NCBI RefSeq assembly: GCF_010993745.1
Contig: NZ_WOTN01000001.1
Coordinates: 2,359,235-2,423,234 of the forward strand
Length of the DNA: 64,000 nt
Direction of reading: 5' to 3'
From: Fodinicola acaciae
Lineage (GTDB): Bacteria; Actinomycetota; Actinomycetes; Mycobacteriales; HKI-0501
Within the stretch, counting starts at the first letter, position 1; each line of letters begins with the position of its first letter. Under the pieces are notes generated by a model. That model had not been told where the DNA came from. It saw only the letters and a program-made list of their open reading frames with translations, and did no database searches. Of the stretch, positions 32,685 through 56,719 are shown one piece after another. The position numbers and the translations under genes were made by a program.

Positions 32685-33673
<989 letters not shown>

Positions 33674-33677
<4 letters not shown>

Positions 33678-34747
33678 CGCTCGATCACCACCTCGGTGTT
33701 GTCGCCGAGTACGAGCCGGCGCGCCGGCGCCGCCGCGACCGCAGGGCTGGACTCGACGCGCGCGTAACGGCCGATGACCGACTGGCGCACCGCGTCGATG
33801 CCCGACACGGTCGATCCCTCCAGCACGATGGAGTCGGCGATGTCGGTGCCGACGATGTCGCACTCCGCGCCGATCGAGGTATAGGCGCCGACCGAGCTGT
33901 CCACGATGGACGCCATGCAGCCGACGATGGCGGGGCCGACGACCCGCGACCGTACGATCCGCGCGCCGGCGTCGATGACCACCGGACCAACGATCTCGCT
34001 CTCGTCGTCGACCTCGCCGGAGTTGGCCGGCTCCGTCAGGTCGAGCAACGCGCGGTTGCAGTCCAGCAGGTCCACGATCCGGCCGGTGTCCTTCCAGTAA
34101 CCGGAGAACACGTGTGCGCGTACGCTGCCGCCGGTCTCCATCAGCCAGCTGATCGCGTCGGTGATCTCCCACTCGTGCCGCCAGCTCGGCTTGATGGCGC
34201 GCACCGCCTGGTGGACTGCCGCCGAGAAGACGTATGCGCCGATGACGGCGAGGTCGCTGCGCGGCTCGGCCGGCTTCTCCACCAGGCGGGTGATCCGGCC
34301 GTCCGCGTCGAGCTCGGCCACGCCGTACTCGCTGGGGTTGGTGACCTTGCCGACCATCACCAGCGCGTCCGGCCGGGTCGTCCAGAACTCGCCGACCAGG
34401 TGCCCGATCCCGCCGCTGATGACGTTGTCGCCGAGATACATGACGAACGGGTCGTCGGCGAGGAAGTCGCGCGCGATCATCACGCAGTGCGCGAGACCGA
34501 GCGGCTCCTCCTGCGGGATGTAGGTGACCCGCAGACCGAAACGCGAGCCGTCACCGACCGCGCGGCGTACGTCGCGGCCGTGCGGTCCGATGATGACGCC
34601 GACCTCGGTGATGCCGGCCCCGGCGATCGCCTCCAGGCCGTGGAAAAGCACCGGCTTGTTGGCGATCGGCACCAGCTGCTTGGAAACCGTGTGCGTGAGC
34701 GGCCGCAGCCGAGTGCCGGACCCACCGGCCAGCACGAGCGCTTTCAT
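33674..34747 (-). CDS. rfbA: Glucose-1-phosphate thymidylyltransferase (long StrD-type)
   Basis: The enzyme makes dTDP-glucose from glucose-1-phosphate and dTTP. It begins with the nucleotidyltransferase motif LAGGSGTRLRPLT, then SKQLVPIANKPV, PQEEPLGLAH, the metal-binding MYLGDN and the EKPAEPRSD loop. At 357 residues it is the long form with an added left-handed beta-helix tail (from about residue 240), as in StrD and other antibiotic-cluster enzymes, and unlike the 290-residue RmlA. It lies 23 bases after the P450 gene and overlaps rfbB. Confidence 0.93.
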
Positions 34748-35967: not shown

Positions 35968-36139
35968 CGCGCTCCTCACGTGGAAACAGGTCACATGGAA
36001 AACAAGTGATGAGCCGATGCTCACCGCGCCGGCTTGAAGGCCACCTGTGGCACACTCAAGGCAGCTGGCATCGACCGGTTCTCAAGCAGTGCTTGCCAGG
36101 ATCGGCCACGGGTGGGGTAACCGTGGACAGGAGCCTGCG
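35968..36139. promoter_or_regulatory. Divergent promoter region (P450 operon and LLM-aminotransferase pair)
   Basis: This 172-base region holds several CTTGA/TCAAG elements: GGCTTGAAGG at 36031-36040, TCAAGGC at 36056-36062 and TCAAGCA at 36082-36088. The last is preceded at exactly 11 bases by TCGACCG (36071-36077), the spacing of SARP heptad repeats. The same core is found in the other two divergent cluster promoters at 44711-44878 and 59906-60052. Confidence 0.45.
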
Positions 36140-37141
36140 ATGCGGCTAGGTGTCAACGTCACACATCTGGATCCCGGCGTCGCGGTCGACGCGGAGCGGC
36201 TCGGATTCCAACTGGCCCTGGTGCCGGAGGGTTTCCGCGCCGACGCGGTCAGCGTCCTCGGCTGGCTTTCCGGCCGTACGCAACGGATCGCGCTCTCGGC
36301 GATCTGCCAGCTGCCGGTGCGTACGCCGGTCGCGACGGCGATGACCGCGGCCACCCTGCACACACTTTCCGGCGGCAGATTCCAGCTGGGGCTGGGAATC
36401 TCGAACTCGCACACCGCCGAGGTCTGGCACGGCGTGCCGTTTCACCGGCCGCTGGCACGTACGCGCGAGTACGTGGACATCGTCCGGATGGCTTTGGCCG
36501 GCGAGGAAATCCGCTATGCCGGTGAGCTTTTCCAGATCCCCCTGCCCGGCCGCACCGGTGCCGGCTTCCGGATGCCGGGCGGCGCCGCGATGCCGATCAA
36601 CCTCGCAGCGGTCGGACCGAGGAACCTCGAGCTGACAGGCCTGATCGCCGACGGCTGGATCGGCGTTTTCTCCTCTCCGGAACGGATCGAAGAGATCCTG
36701 CCGCTGATCTGGAATGGCCGGGACGCGAGCGGTCGGCCGCGCGAGACGTTCGGCATCGTCCTCAGCGCCGGCCTGTCCGTCGACGACGATCCGGAAAAAG
36801 CCGCTGAGGCGTTGAAACCGCATGCGGCCCGTTTCATGTGCATTGGCCACCGCGAGAAAAACTTCTACTATCGGCTGGCCGTCGGCATGGGACTGGGTGC
36901 CGAGGCGACACGCGTCCAGGATTTGTACGCCAGCGGGGATGTGACGGCAGCCACCGCGGCGGTGCCGTTCGATTTCGTCGACGCGACCGGACTTGTCGGT
37001 CCGATCGACCGCATCGCGGCGAAGATGAAGGCCTACGCCACGGCCGGTGTCACCACGCTCGCGCTGACACCTTACGGCTCGGATCGCGTGCGTGCGCTGG
37101 AAATCGCCGCGGCAGCGCACGATCAAAGCGGAGTGGTGTGA
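36140..37141 (+). CDS. LLM-class flavin/F420-dependent oxidoreductase
   Basis: The 333-residue TIM-barrel protein belongs to the luciferase-like superfamily. It shows GVNVTHLDPGVAVDAERLGFQ at the start, LSGRTQRIALSAICQLPVRTP, GGRFQLGLGISN, and the REYVDIVRMALAGEEI segment typical of F420-dependent reductases. Cofactor choice (F420H2 or FMN) cannot be settled by eye. The ATG at 36140 has AGGAG upstream. Its stop shares one base with the aminotransferase start, so the two are coupled; a redox step on the polyketide or on the sugar is likely. Confidence 0.85.
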   Translation: MRLGVNVTHLDPGVAVDAERLGFQLALVPEGFRADAVSVLGWLSGRTQRIALSAICQLPVRTPVATAMTAATLHTLSGGRFQLGLGISNSHTAEVWHGVPFHRPLARTREYVDIVRMALAGEEIRYAGELFQIPLPGRTGAGFRMPGGAAMPINLAAVGPRNLELTGLIADGWIGVFSSPERIEEILPLIWNGRDASGRPRETFGIVLSAGLSVDDDPEKAAEALKPHAARFMCIGHREKNFYYRLAVGMGLGAEATRVQDLYASGDVTAATAAVPFDFVDATGLVGPIDRIAAKMKAYATAGVTTLALTPYGSDRVRALEIAAAAHDQSGVV

Positions 37142-38286
37142 TGCCCGAGGTGCCGTTCAACCGCGCATACCTCGCCGGCAACGAGACCGGCTACGTGGCG
37201 CAGGCGATCGCCAGCGGCGCCACCGGCGGCGACGGGTCGTTCACAAAGAAGGCATCGGCGCTGGTCTCCAGCCTCACCGGCACGACCTCGACCCTGCTGA
37301 CCACATCCTGCACCCATGCGCTGGAACTTTCCGCTCTGCTGCTGGACATCGGCCCCGGCGACGAGATCATCATGCCGTCCTTCACGTTCACCTCGACGGC
37401 CAACGCCTTCGTGTTACGCGGCGCGACCCCGGTTTTCGTGGACATCCGTCCCGACACTCTCAACCTCGATGAGCGCCTGATCGAAAATGCTGTCACGGGC
37501 CGGACGCGCGCGATCGTCGTCGTTCACTATGCCGGTGTGGCCTGCGAGATGGCAGCGATCCTGGCGATCGCCAACCGTCACCGCCTCGTCGTGGTCGAGG
37601 ACAACGCGCATGGCCTCGGCGGCTCGTACGCCGGCCGTCCGCTCGGCTCATTCGGCGTGCTGGCAACGCAAAGCTTTCACGTGACCAAGAACGTCCAATG
37701 TGGAGAAGGCGGCGCGCTCGCGATCGGCGACGAGCGGCTCAGTGAACGTGCCGAGATCGTGCGCGAGAAAGGCACCGACCGCGCGCGGTTCTTCCGCGGC
37801 CAGGTGGACAAGTACTGCTGGCGTGAACTCGGGTCGAGCTACCTGCCGTCGGACGTGCTGGCCGCGTATCTGCTTGGCCAGCTCGAAGCCTTTCCCGACA
37901 TTCAGGGAAAACGCCTGCGGATCTGGTCGACGTACGACGACGCGCTGGCGGACTGGTCCGCCGAACACGGCATTCAGCGGCCAACGGTGCCGGCTGACCG
38001 TACGCATCCGGCACATCTCTACTATCTCCTGTTGCCGACCGCGCCGGCGCGCGACGAGTTCATCCGGCATCTGGCCGAGCGTGGCGTCCGCGCCGCGCAC
38101 CATTACCAGCCCTTGCACTCCGCGCCAGCCGGCCGGCGTTACGCGCGTACGGCCGGATGCCCGGTCACCGAGGACATCGCCGACCGGTTGGTCCGGCTGC
38201 CGCTGTTCGCCGGCATGACCGCTGCCGAGCTCGAACACGTCGTGGTGTCGGCGATCTCGTACGCACCGGCGGTCGTCACGACCTGA
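37141..38286 (+). CDS. dTDP-4-keto-6-deoxyhexose 4-aminotransferase (WecE-like)
   Basis: This PLP-dependent DegT/DnrJ/EryC1 enzyme most closely resembles E. coli WecE/RffA, which converts dTDP-4-keto-6-deoxyglucose to dTDP-4-amino-4,6-dideoxygalactose. Shared blocks include LLLDIGPGDEIIMPSFTF, the STANAFVLRGA segment, VHYAGVACEM, FHVTKN with PLP lysine Lys183 followed by GEGGAL, and FFRGQVDKY-WRELGSSYLPSD. The 381 residues equal the WecE length. Its substrate would come from RfbA and RfbB in the facing operon, so the cluster probably makes a 4-amino-4,6-dideoxyhexose. Codon 92 (37414-37416) is the rare TTA, a possible bldA control point. The start overlaps the LLM stop by one base. Confidence 0.9.
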   Translation: MPEVPFNRAYLAGNETGYVAQAIASGATGGDGSFTKKASALVSSLTGTTSTLLTTSCTHALELSALLLDIGPGDEIIMPSFTFTSTANAFVLRGATPVFVDIRPDTLNLDERLIENAVTGRTRAIVVVHYAGVACEMAAILAIANRHRLVVVEDNAHGLGGSYAGRPLGSFGVLATQSFHVTKNVQCGEGGALAIGDERLSERAEIVREKGTDRARFFRGQVDKYCWRELGSSYLPSDVLAAYLLGQLEAFPDIQGKRLRIWSTYDDALADWSAEHGIQRPTVPADRTHPAHLYYLLLPTAPARDEFIRHLAERGVRAAHHYQPLHSAPAGRRYARTAGCPVTEDIADRLVRLPLFAGMTAAELEHVVVSAISYAPAVVTT

Positions 38287-38340: not shown

Positions 38341-39369
38341 CTAGATGGTCCCCGCGTCGATCGCCTGCGCGATCCACGGGATGACCTCGTCGAGCATGCT
38401 GTCCAACGACGTGGTGGCCTCGAAGTCGAGGATCCGTTTTGCCTTTTCGGTGGCCGGAATCCGGCGTTGTACGTCGTGTTCGAACGGCTTGTCGTGGACC
38501 AGCCGCAGCGGCACATCTGGCCCTTTGGCCTTCCACCAGATCGTCTCGGCGAGCTCGCGTACGGTGGTCGACTGCGCGGTCGACAGGTTGAAATCCTCGT
38601 TGTGGGCGGCCGGATGCGACATCGCGGTGACGATGCCGCGAGCCAGATCGCCACCGTATGTGTAATGCCGGATCTGTTGGCCATCACCGAGAACATGCAA
38701 CGGGTCCTGGCCTTTGAGGACCTTCTGCACCAGGTCCGGCACGACGTGGCTCATCGCCAGTGTCACGTTGCCGGACAAGATCTGCTGATCGCCGAGAGCG
38801 CGACTTTCGCCGATGCCCACGCAGTTGAACGGCCGGACGATCGTGTATGGCAGGCCGTACTGATCCCAGGCCGCGCGCGCGAAATACTCGACCGCGAGTT
38901 TTTGGAAGCCGTACGAGGAAAGCGGCGGCGGCACCTCGCGCTCCTGGCCTTCGTACGACGGCCAGTCGGTGGTGCTCTCGAAGACCATCGAGGACGACAG
39001 GTAGGTCACCTTCGACAGTTTTCCGTTGCGGTGCGCGGCGATCGCGGCGTCGCAGGAGGCGGCGATGATCCGCTCGTTGGTCGCCAGCAGGTCGTACGCG
39101 TATGTGTGGAAATACGAGATGCCGCCGATCATCGCGGCACCGGCGATGAAGTGGTCGCAGTCGGCCAGCAGCTCGGTCATCAGGCCGGTGTCGGTCGCGT
39201 CGCCCTCCACCAGGCGATAACGCGGATGGTCGTCGTATGACTTGACCACCTTGCCGTACTTGGAAAAGTTGTCGACGCCGACCACCTCGTAGCCACGTCG
39301 CAGCAGCTCCTCGACGACGTAACCGCCGATGAAACCGGCCGAACCACTGACCAGGACCTTCTGCATCAT
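38341..39369 (-). CDS. NAD-dependent sugar epimerase/dehydratase
   Basis: The 342-residue extended SDR binds NAD through GSAGFIGGYVVEELL and has the catalytic Ser125-127 cluster and Tyr153/Lys157 (YGFQK). It resembles nucleotide-sugar 4-epimerases and related enzymes. The specific reaction (epimerisation, decarboxylation or other) cannot be read from sequence. ATG codons at 39369 and 39366 are both usable; the first overlaps the GT2 stop. As last gene of the OMT-GtrA-GT39-UGD-GT2 operon it should act on the same UDP-sugar as the dehydrogenase. Confidence 0.85.
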   Translation of the reverse strand: MMQKVLVSGSAGFIGGYVVEELLRRGYEVVGVDNFSKYGKVVKSYDDHPRYRLVEGDATDTGLMTELLADCDHFIAGAAMIGGISYFHTYAYDLLATNERIIAASCDAAIAAHRNGKLSKVTYLSSSMVFESTTDWPSYEGQEREVPPPLSSYGFQKLAVEYFARAAWDQYGLPYTIVRPFNCVGIGESRALGDQQILSGNVTLAMSHVVPDLVQKVLKGQDPLHVLGDGQQIRHYTYGGDLARGIVTAMSHPAAHNEDFNLSTAQSTTVRELAETIWWKAKGPDVPLRLVHDKPFEHDVQRRIPATEKAKRILDFEATTSLDSMLDEVIPWIAQAIDAGTI

Positions 39370-40118
39370 TGACCTTTCGTCGCACGAGCGCGGATCTGGG
39401 CCACCGTCAGCCGCGGCCCGAAGGCGAACCGCCACCAGCGGAAGTATTTCGGCATCCACCGCGCGATCCGGAAGTTGGACACCCCGGCCTGGCGGTCGAG
39501 CCAGATGGTCGGCAGCTCGGCGACCGGCCGGCGCAGCCGTTTGGCCTTGGCGATCAGCTCGATGCCGATCTCGAAACCGTCGCGGCTGTGGATCCCCACC
39601 GACCGGACGAAGTCGGTGGCGTATGCCTTGTACGAGTTCGTCGCATCACGCGTGCCCAGATGTGCCAGCATCCACAGCGAAAGTCCGGCGAGCTTGGAGA
39701 TCAGCGCCTTCAGCCGCGGACCGCCGACCTGCTGACCGCCGGGCATGTAGCGAGACGCCGCGGCCACCGCGACACCGCGTTCGACCAGCCGCGTCAGGTC
39801 GTCGATCTGGCGCGGATCGTCGCAACCGTCCGCCATCGTGACGACGGTGACCGGGGCGACCGCGGCGTCGATGCCGAAGCGAATGGCGTTCGCCGGTCCC
39901 CGGCCGTACGTGTTGACCACGCACCGCAGACCCGGATGGTTTCGGCGGTATTCCTCGATCACATCGACGGTCGTGTCGTCCGGCAGGTCGACGACGACCA
40001 GCACCTCGCATGGCAGCGTGACGGCCTCGAAGAGCCGGTCGAGCACCGGAACGATGTCCTTGCCTTCGTTGTACGCCGGGATGACGACGGACACGCGCGG
40101 TCGCGGCACGAGGGTCAC
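39366..40118 (-). CDS. GT2 glycosyltransferase, polyprenyl-phosphate sugar synthase type
   Basis: The 250-residue GT-A fold enzyme has VSVVIPAYNEGKDIVPVLDRL at the N-terminus, VVVDLPDDTT and the acidic MADGCDDP motif near residue 95. This resembles dolichol-phosphate-mannose synthase and ArnC catalytic domains, but it has no C-terminal membrane helices and must associate peripherally. It would charge a polyprenyl phosphate with the sugar that the GT39 enzyme later transfers. The GTG start at 40118 overlaps the dehydrogenase stop (GTGA). Confidence 0.85.
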   Translation of the reverse strand: MTLVPRPRVSVVIPAYNEGKDIVPVLDRLFEAVTLPCEVLVVVDLPDDTTVDVIEEYRRNHPGLRCVVNTYGRGPANAIRFGIDAAVAPVTVVTMADGCDDPRQIDDLTRLVERGVAVAAASRYMPGGQQVGGPRLKALISKLAGLSLWMLAHLGTRDATNSYKAYATDFVRSVGIHSRDGFEIGIELIAKAKRLRRPVAELPTIWLDRQAGVSNFRIARWMPKYFRWWRFAFGPRLTVAQIRARATKGQ

Positions 40119-41332
40119 ACCCGCACCCCGGCACCGAGAATGTTCCACACGTCGACCACCGGCTTGTCGGTCGTCAGGCCGCGGTAGGTTTCGTGCGGTG
40201 CGGCCACGAAAAGCAGGTCGGACGCGTCGACCACCTCGTCCAGCGGCCGCAGCTGCGGGTCGACCGTGACGTACGGGTCGGTGCACAGCACGCGCGCCGC
40301 CTTGAACTTGAGGATTCGCTTGAGTTTGTACGACAAACTTGACCGGATGTCGTCGGACTCGCCTTTGAAGGCCATGCCGAGGATGCCGACGGTCAGGCCG
40401 GACAGGTCGAAGCGCCGCTCGACCCGGTCGACGAGATAGAGCGGCAGGCCTTCGTTGATCGCCATCGCGGTGTGGCCGAGCGCGAAATTGTTGTTGTTGT
40501 AGGCCGCGAGCTGCATCGTGTCCTTGAAAAGGCACGGCCCCGCCGCGAAACCCGGGCCAGGCATGTCGGCCGCGCGCGGATAGTCGGCGGTCAGGCCGGC
40601 GCGGATCCGCTCGAAGTCCAGGCCGCGGTCGTTGGCCATCATGTAGAGCTGGTTGGCGGTCGCAAACTTGACATATCGCCACACGTTGGTGAAGAGCTTG
40701 GCCAGCTCCGCTTCCTCCGGTGCCATCTCCACGACTTTGCCGGTCAGCAACGAGAAAAGCTTTCCGGCGCGGCGGAGGCCTTCGGGCGTACGGCTGGAGA
40801 CGATCTGCGGCAGGTCGAAAAGCTCGGTCATCGCGCGGCCTTCGGCGATCCGCTCCGGGCAGAAGGCCACGTCCAGCTCGACGCCGAGGCCGGCGACCAT
40901 TTTCTCGACACTGGCGGTGACACCGGGATAGACGGTGCTGCGCAGGACGATCAGCTGGCCGTCGCGGAAGTGGTCGCCGCAGGCGGCCAGCGCCTCGCTG
41001 ATCGCGGCCTGGTCGGGGTTGAGGTGCCGGTCGACCGGCGTACCGATCACCACCACCACGTTTTCCGCGGTCGAGATCACTGAGGGGTCGACGGATGCCT
41101 TCAACCGTCCCGATTCCAGCGCTCTGGTCAGCACTTCGGGCGCGCCGGCCTCGTCGAACGGCATCCGGCCGGCGTTGACCGCGCGTACCGAATCGGCGTT
41201 GACGTCATAGATCCCGACGCGTGCGCCGCGGTCGGCGAGCGCGATCGCCAGTGGCAGTCCGACGTGACCGCAGCCGCCGATCACGACCACGTCACGTGCG
41301 AATCCGGTCTGGTTTTCCAAGGAAGTCGTCAT
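40115..41332 (-). CDS. UDP-sugar 6-dehydrogenase (UGD/WecC family)
   Basis: This 405-residue enzyme oxidises a nucleotide sugar at C6 to a uronate using two NAD+. The N-terminal Rossmann domain starts VVIGGCGHVGLPLAIALADRG. STVYPG, FCPERIAEG and the catalytic Cys267 in GPCLFKDT follow. A nearby NNNNF and a final UDP-binding domain with MAFKGESDDIRSS complete the fold. UDP-glucose is the most likely substrate, but UDP-N-acetyl sugars are possible. It sits 10 bases after the GT39 gene and overlaps the GT2 gene. Confidence 0.9.
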   Translation of the reverse strand: MTTSLENQTGFARDVVVIGGCGHVGLPLAIALADRGARVGIYDVNADSVRAVNAGRMPFDEAGAPEVLTRALESGRLKASVDPSVISTAENVVVVIGTPVDRHLNPDQAAISEALAACGDHFRDGQLIVLRSTVYPGVTASVEKMVAGLGVELDVAFCPERIAEGRAMTELFDLPQIVSSRTPEGLRRAGKLFSLLTGKVVEMAPEEAELAKLFTNVWRYVKFATANQLYMMANDRGLDFERIRAGLTADYPRAADMPGPGFAAGPCLFKDTMQLAAYNNNNFALGHTAMAINEGLPLYLVDRVERRFDLSGLTVGILGMAFKGESDDIRSSLSYKLKRILKFKAARVLCTDPYVTVDPQLRPLDEVVDASDLLFVAAPHETYRGLTTDKPVVDVWNILGAGVRV

Positions 41333-41342
41333 TGTCGCTCTC

Positions 41343-43202
41343 TCACTGGCAGTGGTGCAGGACGAGTGCGTCCGGAGAGAAGGACGCGCCGTACGTGGAC
41401 GGGTCGATCCGCGCGCAGTGCTGGCCGATCCAGCCGGCGATGACCGGGTCGGCGAACCGCGGCGGCACTTTTCCCGGATAGAGCAGGAAATACCGCACGC
41501 GACCCTGCTGGACATACTGCCGCAGCTGCGCGACGGTGAGCGCGTGGTCGCTGCCGAGGAAGCCGCCCATCGCCATGAAAGGCTTGCCGGTGCGCAAAAT
41601 CATCGGTGCCGCATACTGTGAGCTCGGTACGCCGGCGAGCCAGGTCGCCTCACCCCGCCGGTTGTCCAGATATGCCAGCATCTTCCGATAGCCGGCGGCG
41701 TCACCGGTCGAGCTGTCGAGGTCCTGGAACGGTCCGTTCGGGTCGCCACCGAAACCACCTTTGCCGCCTGGCCCGCCTTTCCAGGTGTCAGCAGGACCGG
41801 CCAGCGGATTGGTGAAGATGATGCGCTGGAACGGTGTCACGACAGCGAAAGCGGTAGGGCCAGCGAGTACGGCGACCAGCGAGATCGCCACCGCCGGGCC
41901 GGTCCAGCGGCCGGCAGGCAGGATGGCGATCGCGACGATGGTCGCGATCAGGACCAGCCATCCCAACCAGGGCACGAAAGTTGGCGTACGCGACAGAAGC
42001 ACGAAGGCCAGCAGGCCGCTGGCGCAGACGGCGAGCGGCAGGCTCCAGCGCCGGGATTCCTTTGGCAGTACGAAGATCGTCGCCGCCAGCGCGGCGAGTG
42101 CCGGCGCCATCGGCGCGGTGTAATAGGGATGCGGGCCGCCGCTGGTGAAGCTCAGCACGGCGAGGTGTGTCAGCAGCCAGGTCCCCCACAGGATGAGGAC
42201 AGCGCGAGGAAAGTCCGTACGCGCACGGCGCCCACGCAGCACGAGTCCGACGACCAACGCCACGATCGCCAGTGGAATCAGCCAGGAGATCTGCGCGCCG
42301 AGGAAGTCGTTGACCATCCGGCCGACGCCGGGGTCGCCCATCCACTCGTCACCGGAGCCGGACTTCCCGAGCCGGCCGATGCCGTTGGCGCCGATCACGC
42401 TGTCCAGGAACGTGTTGTTGGAGCTGCCACCGATGTAGGGCCTGGAGCCGGCCGGCGTCGCGTCGACGATCACCAGCCACCACAGGCTGCTGACCGCCAG
42501 CGCCGCGCCGGCGGCGACCAGGTGCCCGAGCCGCCGGAGCGTCGGTCCCGGCGCCGCGACGACGTACGTGAGAACCAGCGCCGGCACCACCAGATAGGCC
42601 TGCAACATCTTCGTGTTGAAGGCAAAACCGACCAGGACAGCGGCCACCACCAGCAGTCGTACGCTGCCTGAGCGGGTCGCCTCCAGACCTGCCCAGCCGG
42701 CCAGCACGAGCAGCAGCACGAGCAGCGGGTCAGGTGTGTTGTCGCGACTGATGGCGACCGTGATAGGTGTCAGCGTCAACACCAGAGCGGCGACGAGACC
42801 GGCGCGCACGCCGGCCGTACGGCGTACGGCCACATAGAGAACGGCGACTGCCGCGACCGCCTCGATTGCCTGCGGCAGCAACAATGTCCAGGTGTTGAAG
42901 CCGAAAACCCGCGCGGTCAGGCCAACGATCCAGAGCGCCAGCGGCGGTTTGTCGACGGTGATGAAGGATGCCGGATCCAGCGACGCGAAGAAGAACGCGT
43001 GCCAGCTCTTGGTGCCGGACAGGACGGCGGCCGAGTAGTACTGGTAGGCGTTGCCGCTCGCGCCCAGACCCCAGGTGTAGAGAGCGGCGGCGAGGACCAG
43101 AATCGCGAGCAGTGCGGGACGAGCCCATCGCGCGCTGCCGCTGCGAACGATGTTCTCAACGTGTTCCTCGGTGGCGGCCGGCGGAGACAGATGCGTGGTC
43201 AT
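41343..43202 (-). CDS. GT39/ArnT-like membrane glycosyltransferase
   Basis: The 619-residue protein has about 11 to 13 membrane helices. The first extracytoplasmic loop bears the DKPPLALW motif near residue 84, as in ArnT and protein mannosyltransferases, preceded by YQYYSAA and followed by SRDNTPDP. The C-terminal extracytoplasmic domain is Gly-rich (GGPGGKGGFGGDPNG). Enzymes of this class use a polyprenyl-phosphate sugar on the outer face of the membrane and do not use a nucleotide sugar. The operon also encodes a GT2 synthase and a GtrA flippase. The acceptor may be the exported polyketide or an envelope component. Confidence 0.9.
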   Translation of the reverse strand: MTTHLSPPAATEEHVENIVRSGSARWARPALLAILVLAAALYTWGLGASGNAYQYYSAAVLSGTKSWHAFFFASLDPASFITVDKPPLALWIVGLTARVFGFNTWTLLLPQAIEAVAAVAVLYVAVRRTAGVRAGLVAALVLTLTPITVAISRDNTPDPLLVLLLVLAGWAGLEATRSGSVRLLVVAAVLVGFAFNTKMLQAYLVVPALVLTYVVAAPGPTLRRLGHLVAAGAALAVSSLWWLVIVDATPAGSRPYIGGSSNNTFLDSVIGANGIGRLGKSGSGDEWMGDPGVGRMVNDFLGAQISWLIPLAIVALVVGLVLRGRRARTDFPRAVLILWGTWLLTHLAVLSFTSGGPHPYYTAPMAPALAALAATIFVLPKESRRWSLPLAVCASGLLAFVLLSRTPTFVPWLGWLVLIATIVAIAILPAGRWTGPAVAISLVAVLAGPTAFAVVTPFQRIIFTNPLAGPADTWKGGPGGKGGFGGDPNGPFQDLDSSTGDAAGYRKMLAYLDNRRGEATWLAGVPSSQYAAPMILRTGKPFMAMGGFLGSDHALTVAQLRQYVQQGRVRYFLLYPGKVPPRFADPVIAGWIGQHCARIDPSTYGASFSPDALVLHHCQ

Positions 43203-43687
43203 CGGACGTGCTCCCGTAAGGGGTCTTGGTTGCGGCGCGGATGAAAAACCCAGCCACGCAACAACGCGAAGCGCAGGATGGTGGACAGTGCCGTGCAGGC
43301 CGCCAGGGTGACCAGCTCGGCGATCCGGCCGGCATGCGCAGCGGCGAGCTGCAGCAGCCCCAACCCGCCGCTGCTGACGACCGGCCCGAGCAGGAAGGTC
43401 ACGCCGCCTTCGACGTGGTGGCGCAGTGCTCGGCGTGAGCCGCGAAAACCGAACGCGAGCCGCCGGTTGGCCGCCGTGTTGGCCACCATCACCAGCAACA
43501 CGGCCGGCACGTTGGCGACCAGTGGCGGCAGGAACGTACGCAGCAGCGCGTAAAAAGCCAGATGCGCGGCGGTGCTCAGCGCGCCGATGACGACGAACGC
43601 CGGCAGCTGGCGCGCCATGCCGGCCGGCAGCCGATCCAGCAGACGCGGATTTTCCTGGCGGTCGCGGACAACCGGTGTTCCGGTCAT
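43199..43687 (-). CDS. GtrA-family membrane protein (probable lipid-linked sugar flippase)
   Basis: The 162-residue protein has four membrane helices and GtrA-family features: LPAFVVIGALSTAAHLAFYALLR, ANTAANRRLAFGFRGS, and the terminal ALLRGWVFHPRR. GtrA-type proteins are thought to flip polyprenyl-phosphate sugars outward. Its stop overlaps the GT39 start by four bases and it starts 9 bases after the O-methyltransferase stop, which ties lipid-linked sugar transfer to an antibiotic-type gene. Confidence 0.88.
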   Translation of the reverse strand: MTGTPVVRDRQENPRLLDRLPAGMARQLPAFVVIGALSTAAHLAFYALLRTFLPPLVANVPAVLLVMVANTAANRRLAFGFRGSRRALRHHVEGGVTFLLGPVVSSGGLGLLQLAAAHAGRIAELVTLAACTALSTILRFALLRGWVFHPRRNQDPLREHVR

Positions 43688-43696
43688 GGCGTCAGC

Positions 43697-44710
43697 TCAC
43701 TTTTTGCGGCCGATAACCAGCGTGTCGACGTCGGTCAGCTGGGTCGTGTCGGTCTCGGTGAAGCCGGCCTCGACCATCATCGCGCGGCAGTCGGCCGCGG
43801 TGTACTCGCTGCCGCCGGGACTGATCAGCATCATGTGCAGGCTGGTGATCAGGCTGTGGTCGTTGGTACGGCGCTCGTCGTCGATCATGGGGTCGTAGAC
43901 CAGCAGCACACCGCCGGACGGCAGCGCGTCGTACGCCTTGCGGACGAGTTCCTTGCGCAGGCCCGGATTCCAGTCGTGCAGGACGTGACCGAAGATCAAT
44001 ACGTCCGCCGAGGGCACCGGCTCGGTGAAGAAGTCGCCGGGATGGAAGGCGATCCGGCCGGCCATGCCGAGCTTTTCCATGTGTTCGTCGAAAACCTCGC
44101 GCACCGCCGGCAGGTCGAAGACGGTGGCGTTCAGGTGCGGATGCGCCTTCACCAGCTCGGCCGACAGGTTGCCGCGCGCGCCGCCGAGGTCGGCGAACGA
44201 CCGGTGCGCGCGCCAGTCGTACTTGTCGGCCAGGGCCGGACCGACCAGCTGGTTGATGCCGTCCATCGCGGCCATGAACCGGCGGATACGCTTCGGGTCG
44301 GCCTGCATGTCGTCGTGCATCTTCTGTTCGTTTTCCACGTCTTCGGTGACCGAGCCGATCTGCAGGAGCTCGGCGAGCCGGGCCCATTTGCCGTACTGCA
44401 GGTTGTGCATGATGAGAAAGCCACCGACGTATCCAGGCTTGCGCGCGTCCAGGTACGCATCGGAAACCGCTGTGTTGCGATAGAAACCCTGTTCTCGGTC
44501 GAGCAGGTCCATCGCCACCAGCGCGTCGAGGAAATCGCGAGTGGCGCGCGGATGCAGGTCGAGCGCGGCGCGCAGCTCGGTCTCGGTGGCCGGCGCCGCC
44601 GCGAGGTGCGTGAAAATCCCGAGCTCGACCGCGGTCAGCAGGACCTTGGAGCGGCAGTGGTCCAGGCCGAGCCGGATCAGCTCGGTCTTTCCGGGGATTG
44701 TGGTTGTCAT
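43697..44710 (-). CDS. SAM-dependent O-methyltransferase (TcmN/DnrK-like)
   Basis: The 337-residue protein belongs to the PF00891 group of natural-product O-methyltransferases. It has an N-terminal winged-helix dimerisation domain (VELGIFTHLAAAPATETELRAALDLHPRATRDFLDALVA) and the SAM site SFADLGGARGNLSAELVKAHP. GHVLHDWNPGLRKELVRKA and the TADCRAMMVEAGF motif follow. Such enzymes methylate phenols in aromatic polyketides. The ATG at 44710 has GAGGTG upstream. It is the first gene of a six-gene operon running through the lipid-linked sugar module. Confidence 0.92.
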   Translation of the reverse strand: MTTTIPGKTELIRLGLDHCRSKVLLTAVELGIFTHLAAAPATETELRAALDLHPRATRDFLDALVAMDLLDREQGFYRNTAVSDAYLDARKPGYVGGFLIMHNLQYGKWARLAELLQIGSVTEDVENEQKMHDDMQADPKRIRRFMAAMDGINQLVGPALADKYDWRAHRSFADLGGARGNLSAELVKAHPHLNATVFDLPAVREVFDEHMEKLGMAGRIAFHPGDFFTEPVPSADVLIFGHVLHDWNPGLRKELVRKAYDALPSGGVLLVYDPMIDDERRTNDHSLITSLHMMLISPGGSEYTAADCRAMMVEAGFTETDTTQLTDVDTLVIGRKK

Positions 44711-44878: not shown

Positions 44879-45832
44879 TTGCGTCCAGCCACTATTGAGG
44901 CACGCGACCTCGCGAAGGGTTATCCCGGCGGAGTACGCGCGCTCGACGGAATCAGTTTCCACGTGCCGGCCGGCAGTGTGTTCAGCGTGCTCGGCCCCAA
45001 CGGCGCGGGAAAGTCCACCGCGATGAAAATCCTGACGACACTGGCCAGGCCGGACAGCGGCTCGGCGGCGATCGGCGGCATCGACGTCGCGCGCGACCCG
45101 CAGGCCGTACGGCGGATCATCGGCTGCGTCACCCAACAGTCCGGAGTGGACGGCGCGGCGACCGGCCGGGAAAACCTGACGCTGCAGGGAAGACTGCACG
45201 GCCTGTCCGGTCGTACGCTCGCGGCTCGCGTCGACGAGCTGATCGAACGGGTCGACCTGACGGCAGCGGCGCGGCGGCTGGCCGAGACCTACTCCGGTGG
45301 TACGAAACGAAAACTCGACATCGCGATGAGCCTGATCCACCGGCCGCGGGTGCTTTTCCTGGACGAGCCGACGACCGGCCTGGACCCGGAGATCCGCGCG
45401 GAGATCTGGCAGCAGATCGCCGCGCTGTCCGAGCGCGACCAGCTGACCGTCCTGCTCACGACGCACTATCTGGAGGAGGCCGACCGGCTCGCCGACCGGG
45501 TGGTGATCCTCGACCACGGCAAGGTCGTCGCCGAAGGCAGCCCGAGCCAGCTGAAGGACGAACTGCGCGGCGACGCCGTGCGGGTGGACCTGATCGAGCC
45601 GCGTGCCGTGCCGGCCGCACACCGCGCGCTGTCCGGCCTCGCGCTGATCCGCGAGGTCGTCGTCGAAGGTTGCGCCGTACGCGCACGTGTCGACGACGCC
45701 GCCGCGGCCGTGCCGCTGGTTCTGGCCGCGTTGAACGCCGACGGCGTACGCGCCGCGTCGGTGACGATCGCGCGGCCGTCACTGCACGACGTCTATCTCC
45801 ACCACGCGAGCCGCTCGGAGGCCAGCCGATGA
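44879..45832 (+). CDS. ABC transporter ATP-binding subunit (DrrA-type drug exporter)
   Basis: The 317-residue ATPase has Walker A GPNGAGKST near residue 40, signature YSGGTKRKLD, Walker B RVLFLDEPTTGLD and the switch histidine in LLTTHYLEEADRL. The extended C-terminal region matches the DrrA/daunorubicin-resistance group. Translation starts at TTG (44879) behind GAGAGG; no ATG is available in frame. It overlaps the permease gene by four bases. It probably exports the cluster product and gives self-resistance. Confidence 0.92.
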   Translation: MRPATIEARDLAKGYPGGVRALDGISFHVPAGSVFSVLGPNGAGKSTAMKILTTLARPDSGSAAIGGIDVARDPQAVRRIIGCVTQQSGVDGAATGRENLTLQGRLHGLSGRTLAARVDELIERVDLTAAARRLAETYSGGTKRKLDIAMSLIHRPRVLFLDEPTTGLDPEIRAEIWQQIAALSERDQLTVLLTTHYLEEADRLADRVVILDHGKVVAEGSPSQLKDELRGDAVRVDLIEPRAVPAAHRALSGLALIREVVVEGCAVRARVDDAAAAVPLVLAALNADGVRAASVTIARPSLHDVYLHHASRSEASR

Positions 45833-46605
45833 CCGCCACGCTCACCCAGTCGTGGTTCATGACCACCCGCCTGCTGCGCGGCACCGTACGGCAGCCGCTG
45901 TTCCTTGCCATCGGACTGGTGCAGCCGGTGGTCTGGCTGCTGATCTTCGGCCAGCTGTTCGGCCGGGTGACCGAGCTCGGCGGCTTCGGCACGCGGTCGT
46001 ACCTGGACTACCTCACTCCCGGCGTGCTGGTGATGATGGCGCTGACCCGTGGCGCGTGGAGCGGCGGCGACCTGCTGGTCGAGCTGGACCACGGCGTGCT
46101 CGACCGGTTCCTGATCTCGCCGGTGTCGCGCGCCGCGCTGATCGGCGGCCACCTCTGTCACCAGGCGATCGCGGTGATGGCGCAGTCGCTGGTCGTCCTG
46201 CTGCTCGCCGCGCTGGCCGGCGCCCGGCTGCCCGGTGGCCTGCCCGGCATGCTGGCGATGCTGGCCGCCGCGACCCTGGTGGTGCTCGCGGTCGGCTCGC
46301 TGTCGATGGCGTTCTCGCTGGTCATCCGCAAGCCGCAGACGCTGACCGCGACCATCCAGTTTGTCCTGCTGCCGCTGGTCTTCCTCAGCTCGGCGTTCAT
46401 CGAACAGCGGCTGGCGGCGCCGTGGATCGCGTTCGTCGCCCGGTTCAACCCGATCGACTGGGCCGTCCAGGCTGGCCGCAGCGCGCTGTCGGCGGCTCCC
46501 GACTGGGGTCTGGTGTTCACCCGGCTCGGCTGGCTCTTCCTACTCGCCGCGGTATGCGCCGCCGTCACGGTCCGGTCGTTTCGCGCCTATCAGCGGTCGC
46601 TATGA
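45829..46605 (+). CDS. ABC-2 type permease (DrrB-type)
   Basis: The 258-residue protein has six membrane helices of the ABC-2 family: PLFLAIGLVQPVVWLLIFGQLFG, YLTPGVLVMMAL, MLAAATLVVLAVGSLSMAFSLV and LPLVFLSSAFIE, then the conserved FNPIDWAVQAGRSAL. It pairs with the preceding ATPase (ATGA overlap) and is itself coupled to the sugar ketoreductase gene by a four-base overlap. Confidence 0.92.
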   Translation: MTATLTQSWFMTTRLLRGTVRQPLFLAIGLVQPVVWLLIFGQLFGRVTELGGFGTRSYLDYLTPGVLVMMALTRGAWSGGDLLVELDHGVLDRFLISPVSRAALIGGHLCHQAIAVMAQSLVVLLLAALAGARLPGGLPGMLAMLAAATLVVLAVGSLSMAFSLVIRKPQTLTATIQFVLLPLVFLSSAFIEQRLAAPWIAFVARFNPIDWAVQAGRSALSAAPDWGLVFTRLGWLFLLAAVCAAVTVRSFRAYQRSL

Positions 46606-47471
46606 CCGTCGTCGTCATCGGCGCCGGTGGCCTGATCGGCGGCGCGCTCCAGTCGGTGTTGCGGCGCTCCGGCGTCGCGGTCACCGGCTTCACCCGGCAG
46701 TCGCCGGCGATCGTCGACGGCCGGCCACATCCGGCCCTGATCTCGGCGCGTACGGTCTACTACCTGGCGTCCACCATCTCACCGTCCAATGTGGACGGAG
46801 CGGCCGCCGACCACACCGATTTCGTGCGGCTGCTCGACGGACTCACCGCCGCCGGACGGCGACCGACGGTCGTGCTCGGCAGCTCCGGCGGCACCGCGTA
46901 CGACCCGACCGCTTCCCCGCCATACGCAGAGGACTCGCCGGTCGCGCCGGCCGATCCGTACGGCCGCGCGAAGGTCCGGATGGAGGACGAGCTGCTGGCG
47001 CGCGCCGGCCAGCTGCGACCGGTGGTGCTGCGGCTGGCCAACGTGTACGGGCCGCGGCCGGACGGCACCGGCGGCTTTGGCGTTGTGGCGCACTGGTTGC
47101 GGGCGATCGCCGAGGGCCGGCCGGTGCGGCTCTTCGGTGACCCGCGGACCGTCCGCGACCACGTCTTCGTCGGCGACGTGGTCGACGCGATGCTTGCCGT
47201 ACGGCGGGCCGCCCCGCTGCCGTCGGTGCTCAACCTCGGGTCGGGCCGGCCGGTGTCGCTCGCGGACCTGTTCGAGGTCGTACGCGCGGTGACCGGCACC
47301 CGGCCGGAGGTGGAGCGGCTGCCGTCGCGCGGCCGGGACCGGCCGGCGGTGTGGCTGGACGTGCGACTGGCCCGGTCGGCGCTGGACTGGTGGGCCCGTA
47401 CGCCGCTGGAGGCCGGCATCGCGCAGACCTGGCGGGCCCTGTTGGACACGTACTCGGCAGTCAATCGGTGA
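46602..47471 (+). CDS. NAD-dependent epimerase/dehydratase family, probable sugar 4-ketoreductase
   Basis: The 289-residue short SDR has VVIGAGGLIGGALQSVLRRSG at the N-terminus, the catalytic serine in VVLGSSGGTAY, and YGRAK as the Tyr/Lys pair near residue 120. This size and the lack of dehydratase acidic residues after the serine fit dTDP-4-ketohexose reductases of antibiotic clusters. It would give a 4-hydroxy-6-deoxyhexose, competing with or complementing the WecE-like aminotransferase. It overlaps the ABC permease gene (ATGA) and precedes the GT1 gene by 7 bases. Confidence 0.8.
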   Translation: MTVVVIGAGGLIGGALQSVLRRSGVAVTGFTRQSPAIVDGRPHPALISARTVYYLASTISPSNVDGAAADHTDFVRLLDGLTAAGRRPTVVLGSSGGTAYDPTASPPYAEDSPVAPADPYGRAKVRMEDELLARAGQLRPVVLRLANVYGPRPDGTGGFGVVAHWLRAIAEGRPVRLFGDPRTVRDHVFVGDVVDAMLAVRRAAPLPSVLNLGSGRPVSLADLFEVVRAVTGTRPEVERLPSRGRDRPAVWLDVRLARSALDWWARTPLEAGIAQTWRALLDTYSAVNR

Positions 47472-47478
47472 GGACCAG

Positions 47479-48786
47479 ATGGCCAACTTCCTGATCAGCA
47501 CCATGCCGGAGACCGGACACGTCTATCCGGCGCTTCCGATCGCCGCGGCGCTCGTCCAGCGCGGGCACGACGTGCGCTGGCACACCGGTGCGGACTTCGC
47601 CGAGCGGATCCGGCGGACCGGCGCGGCGTACCTGCCGATGCGGCACGCGCCGCGGTTCCAGGACCTCAGCAGGCGGCCGAAGCAGGGCCGCGGCTGGCCG
47701 GCCGTGGCCGGTGCGCTGACCCGGCTGTTCGTCGAGCCGGCGCGCGGGCAGCTGATGGACTACCAGGACATCCTGTCCGACTTCGCCGCGGACGTCGTGC
47801 TGAACGAGTCGACCGCGGGGCTCGGTCCGCGGCTGCTGTACGAGCTCGGCGGACCGCCGTGGGCCCGGCTCGGCGTGACGCCGCTGCCCAGCCTGCCGAC
47901 CTCGGTGATCCCGCCGCTGGTGTCGCCGTCGGTCTTCGCCGACCCGCCGCGTGTGCTGCCGTACTCGGAGGATCCGGCGACGCAGGAGCGTTATCGGCGG
48001 TTGAACTGGGAGGCCGCCAACGTCCACATGGCGCCGCTGACCGAGGCGTTGAACGAGCTTCGGGACAGCGTCGGGCTGGGGCCGCAGCCAGCCGGCGAGA
48101 CCGGCTTCGCCGCGACGATCTCGCCGTTTCTGCAGGTGCAGACCGGCACGCCGGCCTTCGACTATCCGCGGCCGGAGCTGCCGCCGCAGGTGCACCACGT
48201 CGGTCCGCTGCTGCCGCCGGACCCCGGCGTCTTCGAGCTGCCGCCGTGGTGGGAGGACGTGGTCGCGGCGGACCGGCCGGTCATCCACGTCACGCAGGGC
48301 ACGGTCGCGGTGGACCCGTCGAGCCTGCTGCGGCCGACCATCGAGGCGCTGGCCGACGAGGACCTGCTGGTCGTCGCGACCGGCGGCGAGGCCTGCGAGA
48401 CCGGTCCGCTGCCGGCGAACGTACGGATCGCGCGGTCTATCCCGTATCCGCTGCTGCTGCCGCATGTCGACGTGATGGTGACCAACGGCGGCATCGGCGG
48501 GATCCTGGCCGCGCTCGCGCACGGCATCCCGCTGGTCGGCGGTGGACGTACGGAGGACAAGCCGGCGATCTGCGCGCGGATCGCTCACACCGGCGTCGGG
48601 ATCGACCTCAAGACCGGCACGCCGTCGGTGGCGCAGATCGGTGACGCCGTACGCCGTGTGATCGGCGATCCGGCATATCAGCGCGCCGCCTCGCGCGTAC
48701 GGGCCGACTTCGCGCGGCACGATGCGCCGGCCGAGGCGGCCGACCTACTGGAACGGCTGGCCGCGAGCCAGGCGCCGGTCGTCTAG
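47479..48786 (+). CDS. GT1-family glycosyltransferase (MGT type)
   Basis: The 435-residue GT-B enzyme transfers a nucleotide sugar to the aglycone in the cytoplasm. The N-terminal acceptor domain starts FLISTMPETGHVYPALPIAAAL. The C-terminal donor domain has HVTQGT near residue 275 and the PSPG-like motif VTNGGIGGILAALAHGIPL. Here NGG replaces the common HGG, and the following loop reads TEDKPA where many homologues have DQ, as in a recognised bacterial subgroup. It is the natural partner for the dTDP-sugar made by RfbA/RfbB and the aminotransferase or ketoreductase. Its stop overlaps the convergent gene by four bases. Confidence 0.9.
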   Translation: MANFLISTMPETGHVYPALPIAAALVQRGHDVRWHTGADFAERIRRTGAAYLPMRHAPRFQDLSRRPKQGRGWPAVAGALTRLFVEPARGQLMDYQDILSDFAADVVLNESTAGLGPRLLYELGGPPWARLGVTPLPSLPTSVIPPLVSPSVFADPPRVLPYSEDPATQERYRRLNWEAANVHMAPLTEALNELRDSVGLGPQPAGETGFAATISPFLQVQTGTPAFDYPRPELPPQVHHVGPLLPPDPGVFELPPWWEDVVAADRPVIHVTQGTVAVDPSSLLRPTIEALADEDLLVVATGGEACETGPLPANVRIARSIPYPLLLPHVDVMVTNGGIGGILAALAHGIPLVGGGRTEDKPAICARIAHTGVGIDLKTGTPSVAQIGDAVRRVIGDPAYQRAASRVRADFARHDAPAEAADLLERLAASQAPVV

Positions 48787-49184: not shown

Positions 49185-49266
49185 TATTAACTCTGTCGGA
49201 GAGACCATGGTCCGATGGTCGCCGCGCCGGCGGTCGCACGCTGGCGGCCATCGGACACCGAGGTCG

Positions 49267-54315: not shown

Positions 54316-54448
54316 CCGCGTTCTCCTTTCGCTCCACCGGTTCTTCCACGAAGACGGTCCAGTCGGCCAGCAGGTGGCAGCGGCCAAGATCCTGCAGGCC
54401 GCGGAAGACCCACCGGCCGACCGTCGCCACCAGCCGGCCGGCGGTCAC
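54278..54448 (-). CDS. Small uncharacterised protein (56 residues) inside the PKS operon
   Basis: A GTG at 54448 overlaps the ABM monooxygenase stop as GTGA, the same coupling used by other genes of this operon. It opens a 56-codon frame filling the otherwise unexplained 129-base gap before the ligase gene and overlapping its start by 38 bases. Most third codon positions are G or C. The product has an amphipathic Trp-containing segment (LVATVGRWVFRGLQDLGR), a Cys, and a charged VEEPVERKEN region. No family is recognised. It could be a subunit or regulator of the ligase or of the ABM enzymes, or a coupling leader. Confidence 0.55.
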   Translation of the reverse strand: MTAGRLVATVGRWVFRGLQDLGRCHLLADWTVFVEEPVERKENADVRHSGLGGFRA

Positions 54449-54747
54449 AGCTCACCGACCACCTGATAGATGCCGTAGGGCCGGCCGCGCGTGGCATCCT
54501 CGTACGGCCGCAGCTGGGACGTCTGGTTTTTGTGCCGGGTCCCCTCCTCCCATGCCTGGAAGGACGGCAGATCGGTCCACTCGCTCAGCACCGCGAAGCT
54601 GCCACTGTCCAATGTGGACTCCAGCAGCTCCGCACCGAGCAACCCGGCGGTGCCGGCCAGCTCCTTGTTGACCCGCTCGTACGCGTCGAGCACGATCTCG
54701 CGATCGCCGGTGGTGTAGTAGACGATCACGCGTACGCGTCCGATCAT
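54445..54747 (-). CDS. ABM-domain monooxygenase, second copy
   Basis: The 100-residue protein is one antibiotic-biosynthesis-monooxygenase domain (dimeric ferredoxin-like fold; cofactor-free oxidation of anthrone-type phenols in TcmH and ActVA-Orf6). It contains VRVIVYYTTGD, SFAVLSEWTDLPSFQAWE and HKNQTSQLRPYEDATRGRP. The ATG at 54747 overlaps the preceding ABM stop by four bases. The sequence differs from its neighbour throughout, so the pair is not a recent duplication and probably acts at different steps or as a heteromer. Confidence 0.85.
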   Translation of the reverse strand: MIGRVRVIVYYTTGDREIVLDAYERVNKELAGTAGLLGAELLESTLDSGSFAVLSEWTDLPSFQAWEEGTRHKNQTSQLRPYEDATRGRPYGIYQVVGEL

Positions 54748-55046
54748 CGCGCGGCCATGTCGAAGACGACGTGCATCGTGGCCATCGAGCCCTGCTCGCG
54801 ATACGGATGCAGTTTCTGCCGGTGCTCCAGGTGCTGCGGACTGCGTTCGAACGTACGGAACTCCGCCTCGGTCACCCAGTCGCTCATGATGTAGTAGAGG
54901 TTTTCCTCGTCGCCACTGCGTAAAAGCCACTGGCCGCGGTTGGCCGGATGGCCGGAAACGGTGTCACCGACCGAATGCCAGGTCTTCTCGAATTCGGGCC
55001 CCATCCCCGGCTTGATCCGCATCCGCAGCATCACCCGAAAACTCAT
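54744..55046 (-). CDS. ABM-domain monooxygenase, first copy
   Basis: Also 100 residues, with VMLRMRIKPGMGPEFEKTW, LYYIMSDWVTEAEFRTFE, and a His-rich HLEHRQKLHPYREQGSM segment. It fits the family of small polyketide oxygenases or cyclase helpers in type II clusters. Its start shares a base with the SDR stop (TGATG). The exact reaction (quinone formation, hydroxylation or ring closure) cannot be assigned. Confidence 0.85.
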   Translation of the reverse strand: MSFRVMLRMRIKPGMGPEFEKTWHSVGDTVSGHPANRGQWLLRSGDEENLYYIMSDWVTEAEFRTFERSPQHLEHRQKLHPYREQGSMATMHVVFDMAAR

Positions 55047-55783: not shown

Positions 55784-55798
55784 CAGCTCCGCCTTTCG

Positions 55799-56718: not shown

Positions 56719-56719
56719 G

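Follow-up and report, generated by a model that had tools for sequence, protein, structure and literature searches.

We analysed a stretch of 64,000 nucleotides from the soil actinomycete Fodinicola acaciae (contig NZ_WOTN01000001.1, positions 2,359,235 to 2,423,234; hereafter the window), in which six minus-strand genes lie inside a type II polyketide synthase (PKS) cluster. By gene layout the six genes are one operon. As judged from sequence comparison, two glycosylation modules of the envelope type are combined in this operon, a dehydrogenase-GT2-epimerase trio and a GtrA-GT39 pair, and the antibiotic cluster has either recruited them or simply houses them. In a comparison with 20 related KSα neighbourhoods, 82 other trio loci and 8 other GT39 loci, the combined set was seen only in the genus Fodinicola.

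The six-gene operon and its two modules

The genes of the operon are as follows.

43697..44710, minus strand: antibiotic-type O-methyltransferase (OMT), first in the operon; PF08100 (Dimerisation) and PF00891 (Methyltransf_2); 85% to the F. feengrottensis copy
43199..43687, minus strand: GtrA/DPMS-type small membrane protein (flippase and/or GT2 anchor); PF04138, 43 bits, over the gathering score
41343..43202, minus strand: GT39/YkcB-like GT-C transferase with a polyprenyl-phosphate sugar donor, by family; PF13231 (PMT_2) 104 bits and PF24878 (YkcB_C) 89 bits, over the gathering score
40115..41332, minus strand: NDP-sugar 6-dehydrogenase (UGD); three UDPG_MGDP_dh domains, TIGR03026 260 bits against a cutoff of 190
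39366..40118, minus strand: GT2 of the polyprenyl-phosphate sugar synthase type; PF00535, nearest PDB entry 5mlz, a dolichol-phosphate mannose synthase (E 1.3e-13)
38341..39369, minus strand: extended short-chain dehydrogenase/reductase, epimerase-like (EPI); PF01370 (NAD epimerase)

The OMT and GtrA genes are separated by 9 nt and the GT39 and UGD genes by 10 nt, and overlaps of 4 were found at the GtrA/GT39, UGD/GT2 and GT2/EPI junctions. These 4-bp overlaps and 9-10 nt gaps therefore indicate one coupled operon by layout. An earlier sequence-only reading had proposed the same six genes as one operon, and the position, strand and family of each were confirmed by Pfam. A promoter scan of the operon gave no sigma-70-type site, and terminator-like sites numbered 11 against 3.2 expected from shuffled sequences; neither result was used as evidence. 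A simple hydropathy count gave three hydrophobic segments in GtrA. When GT39 was compared with PDB sequences, the sole match was ArnT (5ezm); this match was weak (E 0.0033), with VDKPP aligned with FEKPP of ArnT.

Subsequently, the conservation of the UGD, GT2 and EPI genes was examined at 83 loci, titled as many actinobacterial groups: the 80 best GT2 matches of 183 related stretches (F. feengrottensis included) and three loci from the relatives' search. All three genes were present at 75 of the 83 loci under a strict filter, and at 73 they stood on the same strand in the order UGD-GT2-EPI. Eight loci failed the filter, some of them cut or frame-broken, and the order UGD-EPI-GT2 was observed at two. 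Among the 82 loci outside Fodinicola, which are the basis of the partner counts, a UGD match was detected at 80 and an EPI match at 81 (E 1e-5). Control loci with distant GT2 genes, examined with 1.5 kb flanks, had a UGD or EPI partner in 0 of 15 cases. On these comparisons UGD-GT2-EPI is a sharply conserved, widespread actinobacterial trio, for which we found no name. Its GT2 (E <= 1e-60) was present in 10 of the 394 genomes of a class-wide sample, the window's own included. In F. acaciae it is single-copy, the two other matches being at most 28% identical. The mean column identity of EPI was 83% over 51 sequences.

Gene calls at these other loci were heuristic, flank families were single-linkage BLAST clusters and some flanks were short (at least 3.1 kb). 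The trio lay near pheT at 9 of the 82 loci (cluster c11), near a Pup-ligase-family gene at 11 (cluster c7) and beside GtrA-family genes at 10 (cluster c8, not caught by a search with the window's GtrA), each cluster being named from Pfam on one member. By this gene content the trio is found at ordinary loci such as pheST. The fetched flanks of the 82 loci contained no match to the window's GT39, OMT, P450, EryCIII-type glycosyltransferase or KSα; the absence of KSα says little, as even in Fodinicola it is about 18 kb away. A match to the window's GtrA was found at 1 of the 82 loci, and matches to generic families also occurred in these flanks (DrrA 10, EPI2 11, RmlA-type 5, aminotransferase 3, ACC 2 and DrrB 1). 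When 27 hand-picked trio genomes were searched, 12 had KSα, on the same contig as the trio in two (about 0.69 Mb and more than 4 Mb apart) and on different contigs in ten, where adjacency across contig ends is still possible. In a tree of the trio, the window fell in a 17-member clade (support 0.97) in which 7 of 14 printed names are titled Streptosporangiaceae; the nearest sister was unsupported (0.34). This placement hints at transfer. Large membrane proteins were counted within 3 kb of the trio at 64 of the 82 loci by a crude hydropathy count with no background, and this count was not used as evidence.

At 20 of the 82 loci, a membrane protein family, c1, was represented within four called genes of the trio on one side or the other, and at 14 of these 20 it was the first gene after EPI. 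One example lies at L087:11951-13291, and 19 more loci have a member. Two members scanned had no Pfam match, and residues E71 and D72 were invariant in the alignment. An AlphaFold model of one member, built with the 20-sequence alignment, had a predicted local distance difference test (pLDDT) score of 83 and a predicted template modelling score of 0.84. When the model was compared with VIA-align, the top seven rows were oligosaccharyltransferases, a protein O-mannosyltransferase, ALG12 and ArnT (Z 14.6-15.6; for ArnT, Z 14.6 over 354 residues with a root mean square deviation of 5.6). With Foldseek the top 17 rows were all GT-C proteins, the best at E 0.0019. Accordingly modelled, c1 is predicted to be an unannotated GT-C-like transferase, and we infer that the trio makes a polyprenyl-phosphate sugar for GT-C transfer.

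The GtrA and GT39 genes form, as far as the loci compared indicate, a second general module. GT39 relatives are common, with 153 of 394 genomes matching at E <= 1e-60 and three matches in all in the window's own genome. Eight other GT39 loci were fetched, one of them the own-genome paralogue, and a GtrA match was found at six; at none of the eight was UGD, GT2 or EPI a best match, and none had a KSα match. The three nearest fetched relatives (55-60% over the matched part) adjoin a gene for a GT2-GtrA fusion. The second GT39 locus of F. acaciae (L178:8846-14372, contig 4) has two GT39 matches with a GtrA match between them. The Fodinicola operon therefore brings together two modules, the trio and the GtrA-GT39 pair, which stand apart at the loci compared.

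We then compared the neighbourhoods of related KSα genes. KSα matched in 93 of 394 genomes, that of the window included. With the window's own match set aside, the 20 best matches, which come from 18 genomes, supplied the neighbourhoods. The full 20 kb was available on both sides in 12, and 8 were shortened by contig ends. At each place in these neighbourhoods and at the GT39 loci, only the best-scoring window gene was reported. The window's UGD, GT2, EPI, GtrA and GT39 were never the best match at any place in the 20 neighbourhoods, including the 8 cut by contig ends. The search for the same six-gene set in other type II clusters, suggested by the sequence-only reading, thus gave none around these KSα genes. 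That reading would also have been undone by a general surface-polysaccharide locus; the trio and the pair are each general, and the combined set is not.

The nearest sequenced relative that we found is F. feengrottensis HKI 0501, with a GT2 87% identical to that of the window. The average nucleotide identity of the two species is 77.92% (PMC7232338). The operon is kept in F. feengrottensis with the same flanking cluster genes, and the divergent DrrAB-EPI2-EryCIII genes are also kept. About 4 kb absent in the window stands there between EPI and the aminotransferase (L026:6478-10040), with a TPR-like protein, an SBP_bac_5 protein and a weak GH18-like piece. The F. feengrottensis OMT, GT39, UGD, EPI, aminotransferase, AsnB and CLF are split over frames (L031 and L024-L026), which is likely an assembly problem.

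The surrounding polyketide cluster

The assembly of F. acaciae comprises 8,860,993 bases in 4 contigs, in agreement with the 8.86 Mbp and 4 contigs published for strain GKU 173. The same publication describes one type II polyketide cluster in the species, which is silent, as well as a diffusible red pigment and a cell wall containing xylose and mannose (PMC7232338). The following features surround the operon.

54445..59941, minus strand: PKS core with ABM, ketoreductase (KR), anthrone oxygenase family, polyketide cyclase, ACP, CLF, KSα and cupin genes (Pfam)
46602..48786, plus strand: NAD epimerase/reductase (EPI2) and EryCIII-type Leloir glycosyltransferase (PF01370, PF06722)
44879..46605, plus strand: DrrA/DrrB-type ABC exporter, divergent from the operon (PF00005, PF01061; TIGR01188 309 bits, just below the cutoff of 312)
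37138..38286 (start approximate), plus strand: WecE-type sugar aminotransferase (dTDP-4-amino-4,6-dideoxyhexose); NCBIfam NF008687 and TIGR02379 above cutoff
36047..37141, plus strand, opposite to the operon: LLM-class F420-type oxidoreductase of the cluster (PF00296)
33674..34747, minus strand: RmlA, glucose-1-phosphate thymidylyltransferase (TIGR01208, 401 bits against a cutoff of 320)
32721..33674 (start approximate), minus strand: RmlB, dTDP-glucose 4,6-dehydratase (TIGR01181, 407 bits against a cutoff of 365; 44% to RffG)

RmlB, RmlA and a P450 lie to the left of the operon, with the oxidoreductase and the aminotransferase on the opposite strand; DrrAB, the second NAD epimerase and the EryCIII-type gene lie divergently to the right, and the PKS core with an AsnB-family gene occupies 52-60 kb of the window. 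The type II PKS context claimed earlier is real, with KSα, CLF, ACP, cyclase, cupin, KR and one ABM at 54.4-59.9 kb, and a lipid-linked sugar gene set (nucleotide-sugar enzymes, GT2, GtrA and GT-C) does stand in one operon inside this cluster. Among the 20 related KSα neighbourhoods, 7 contained ABM, KR, cyclase, CLF, KSα and cupin together, and 4 of those 7 also had AsnB. An OMT 42-47% like that of the operon was found in 6 of the 7 (tblastn, within 20 kb of KSα), with weaker matches of 23-28% at others.

Characteristic of pentangular clusters are cyclases of the TcmN, TcmJ and TcmI types, together with a ketoreductase and paired ABM monooxygenases (PMC4383371). From this set, the TcmN-type cyclase/dehydrase, the cupin, KR and one ABM were identified in the window by Pfam; a TcmI-type cyclase and a second ABM gene were not identified among the window genes scanned. 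By gene content the cluster is likely, rather than demonstrably, of the pentangular type, because the latter two genes were not found.

Two anthrone-oxygenase-family genes (55799-56260 and 60023-60508) flank the PKS core, and matches to them occur also at several related KSα genes. A short frame at 48783-49208 has a sub-threshold match to periplasmic binding proteins and may be a remnant or have arisen by chance. Immediately to the right of the window, an EryCIII-like/GT28-type glycosyltransferase gene lies beside a P450 match (L179:6944-8296), and the antibiotic cluster may extend to the right beyond the window.

Sugar chemistry and the acceptor

The aminotransferase beside the operon follows the LLM oxidoreductase gene and is on the strand opposite to the six genes. 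It scored 520 bits (cutoff 375) and 489 bits (cutoff 435) with WecE-type NCBIfam models, the 520-bit model being the dTDP-4-amino-4,6-dideoxygalactose transaminase, and 208 bits with the ArnB model (cutoff 631); its identity is 50% to Escherichia coli WecE and 33% to ArnB. Hence, of the WecE/ArnB-type aminotransferase proposed earlier, the presence and the WecE type held and the ArnB counterpart did not. Because the WecE model is above cutoff and RmlA and RmlB are in the same cluster, the simplest reading of these genes is a dTDP-4-amino-4,6-dideoxyhexose route for the polyketide. The first sugar of pradimicin is 4,6-dideoxy-4-amino-D-galactose (PMC10951976). RmlA, RmlB and WecE with the EryCIII-type glycosyltransferase would supply and attach the 4-amino-4,6-dideoxyhexose separately from the operon. 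This glycosyltransferase (47479-48786) is the sole natural-product-type one among the window genes scanned.

The sugar of the trio was considered from UGD and EPI. The GPC motif of UGD was invariant in 78 of 78 sequences, and the nearest PDB entries were Cap5O, a UDP-glucose dehydrogenase and a UDP-ManNAc-type dehydrogenase. At the T-S-E position of decarboxylases, EPI reads SSSM. This motif was invariant in all 80 sequences, as were the Y and K of YGFQK, so that Met, aligned to the E of ArnA STSEVY, occupies the catalytic Glu position of ArnA and UXS throughout. An acidic residue at this site is important in decarboxylases, and a UDP-glucuronic acid 4-epimerase has Ser128 there (PMC7984243); the TSE triad has been described, with one Glu variant of EvdS6 lacking a notable change in activity (PMC10338323). 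Two observations weigh against the epimerase reading: QRRIP of EPI aligns with ArnA EHRKP (the R619 position), the Arg at position 305 being invariant in 51 of 51 sequences, and the fold matches of the EPI model (pLDDT 80, poor at residues 83-95 and 197-209), nearest to UDP-glucose 4-epimerases, also included an oxidoreductase/decarboxylase. An epimerised uronate is our leading guess for the trio sugar. EPI as a UDP-xylose synthase is unlikely by the missing Glu, and the conserved Arg and the PDB decarboxylase matches keep that possibility alive. UGD is not the genome's only such enzyme that could feed cell-wall xylose, a second, higher-scoring copy being present at G000:C2:852986 (432 bits, 25% identical to that of the window).

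Beyond the family assignments, gene layout and conservation, which were observed directly, all catalytic steps are our inference. UGD would oxidise C6 of an NDP-hexose, and EPI would epimerise the oxidised NDP-sugar to a uronate-type NDP-sugar. With GtrA as its anchor or partner, GT2 would load this sugar onto polyprenyl phosphate; GtrA would present the lipid-linked sugar outside, where GT39 would transfer it. DPMS-type synthases likewise have a GtrA domain as their membrane half, and for this reason GtrA may anchor GT2, instead of or as well as flipping the lipid.

As to the acceptor, we lean towards an envelope glycopolymer of the producer over the polyketide itself: the cassette's link to the antibiotic cluster would then lie in protecting the producer or modifying its surface, a reading for which the chances seem close to balanced. 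In the fetched regions from outside Fodinicola, no relative of either module had a type II PKS next to it, and GtrA systems decorating wall polymers have been described (PMC8035078).

Several points weigh against this interpretation. Product tailoring would account equally well or better for an operon that is led by an antibiotic-type OMT and that, in both species of Fodinicola, is flanked by cluster genes. The role of GtrA may be limited to anchoring, the GT39 of the window was assigned to GT-C by its sequence alone, and the substrate of UGD is ambiguous, as UDP-glucose and UDP-ManNAc are not distinguished by the NCBIfam and PDB matches. Only a minority of the trio loci, 20 of 82, have the c1 family nearby; its Z values of 13-15 are near the tool's warning level for helical folds, and no Foldseek match of its model was at E 0.001 or better. 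Moreover, the set is in two genomes only, so conservation is thin, and the integrity of the F. feengrottensis genes is not judgeable in that frame-broken assembly.

The product as acceptor appears somewhat less probable. Here, the amino-sugar-bearing polyketide would be exported by DrrAB or an MFS protein, and GT39 would add a second, lipid-carried sugar on the outer face, as has been proposed for Ram29 and ramoplanin. The operon is headed by the antibiotic-type OMT and is divergent from DrrAB-EPI2-EryCIII, and both arrangements are kept in F. feengrottensis. The one Leloir-type natural-product glycosyltransferase among the window genes scanned stands against two sugars in pradimicin, added by PdmS and PdmQ (PMC10951976). 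GT-C enzymes are known to mannosylate antibiotics of the ramoplanin type; enduracidin is a substrate of Ram29, and the remannosylation of teicoplanin suggests action on the outer face (PMC4635501). However, these precedents are lone GT-C enzymes fed by polyprenyl-phosphate-mannose, and a GtrA, GT2 and sugar pathway of their own are unmentioned in the available part of that report (PMC4635501). GT39 also has a generic YkcB_C end, its eight other fetched loci lacked a KSα match, a further EryCIII-like gene lies just beyond the window, and the count of one Leloir-type enzyme covers the window genes scanned.

That a general surface-polysaccharide cassette is parked inside the antibiotic cluster by chance, with no functional tie, seems unlikely. 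Both modules are general, the trio and KSα are at least 0.69 Mb apart in the two genomes where they share a contig, and any general role of the trio would rest on the window copy, because its GT2 is single-copy. Against this stand the overlapping gene order headed by a cluster-type OMT and the same operon position in two species with an average nucleotide identity of 77.92% (PMC7232338).

A true Arn-type pathway, making and transferring amino-arabinose, is very improbable. In its logic the operon does resemble ArnC/ArnT: GT2 can be aligned with ArnC over 123 residues (24%), and in a set of seven proteins EPI matched the decarboxylase domain of ArnA (24%, E 4e-17), with the Arg of the ArnA HRKP position conserved. 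The parallel to Ugd-ArnA-ArnB-ArnC-ArnT drawn by the sequence-only reading was nevertheless not supported, as the decarboxylase catalytic Glu is Met in all 80 EPI sequences (for the role of Glu, see PMC7984243 and PMC10338323, the latter with the little-changed variant), the aminotransferase is WecE-type and goes with RmlAB, and a comparison of 26 window genes with the Arn proteins of E. coli K-12 gave only chance-level matches to ArnD, ArnE, ArnF and the ArnA formyltransferase end (for ArnD the best was DrrA, E 0.047).

Relation to known systems

Taken together, these findings allow a broader proposal, which we hold tentatively and below an even chance: an aromatic polyketide cluster has taken a whole envelope-type lipid-linked glycosylation system, its own sugar pathway included, into its service. 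The system would either place a sugar on the exported polyketide at the outer membrane face or shield the producer surface from the product. In the second case, if the product is related to the mannose-binding pradimicins, surface mannose would be what is shielded, and the wall of F. acaciae has mannose and xylose (PMC7232338). If the cassette serves the cluster, lipid-linked glycosylation outside the cell can be packaged with an aromatic polyketide, which would offer a portable route for uronate-type sugars on antibiotics or an envelope-based producer protection. Independently of the acceptor, the analysis exposes a sharply conserved UGD-GT2-EPI trio, sometimes beside a putative unannotated GT-C-like transferase, and the sugar product of the trio could be accessible by simple enzyme assays. 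In the open literature searched, mostly at title level, we found no case of outer-face lipid-linked sugar addition to a type II polyketide. Mechanisms of this type are known; in the genomes and literature searched, no other case was found that has a dedicated sugar pathway and lies within a type II PKS cluster.

The pradimicin/benanomicin pdm cluster, compared by description only, likewise has a type II PKS, a P450, an OMT, an amino acid ligase and 4-amino-4,6-dideoxygalactose, to which the AsnB-family gene and RmlAB-WecE correspond here. In pdm, however, the second sugar is added by PdmQ, and a lipid-linked cassette is unmentioned in the available part of the report (PMC10951976). In the gsf cluster of Actinoplanes missouriensis, a GtrA gene is likewise found with a UDP-ManNAc/GlcN dehydrogenase-type gene and GT2 genes; it differs in its other genes and its role in sporangium formation, and a PKS is unmentioned in the part of that report available (PMC13390465).

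Ram29, MppH/I, Dbv20 and Tcp15 are GT-C mannosyltransferases within antibiotic clusters, as GT39 would be here, and are likened to it by description only; they act on peptides with polyprenyl-phosphate-mannose as the donor (PMC4635501). The Arn system (ArnBCADTEF with Ugd) shares with the operon a dehydrogenase, a GT2, a GT39-type transferase and the addition of a lipid-linked sugar outside. It differs in that the Fodinicola set has no decarboxylase Glu and no formyltransferase/deformylase match, GtrA replaces ArnEF, and the aminotransferase is WecE-type and tied to RmlAB.

In logic the operon resembles multi-component (three-component) transmembrane glycosylation systems such as CsbB/GtcA/YfhO and GtlA/GtcA/GtlB, in which a GT2, a GtrA protein and a GT-C enzyme achieve outer-face transfer from a C55-P-sugar (PMC8035078). 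All three components were recognised by sequence in the operon: a GT2 of the polyprenyl-phosphate sugar type (PF00535, 5mlz), GtrA (PF04138) and a GT-C (PF13231, YkcB_C). The putative order of NDP-sugar, polyprenyl-phosphate sugar and outside GT-C transfer fits these systems, to which the Fodinicola operon adds its own dehydrogenase, epimerase and OMT and a location in a type II PKS cluster.

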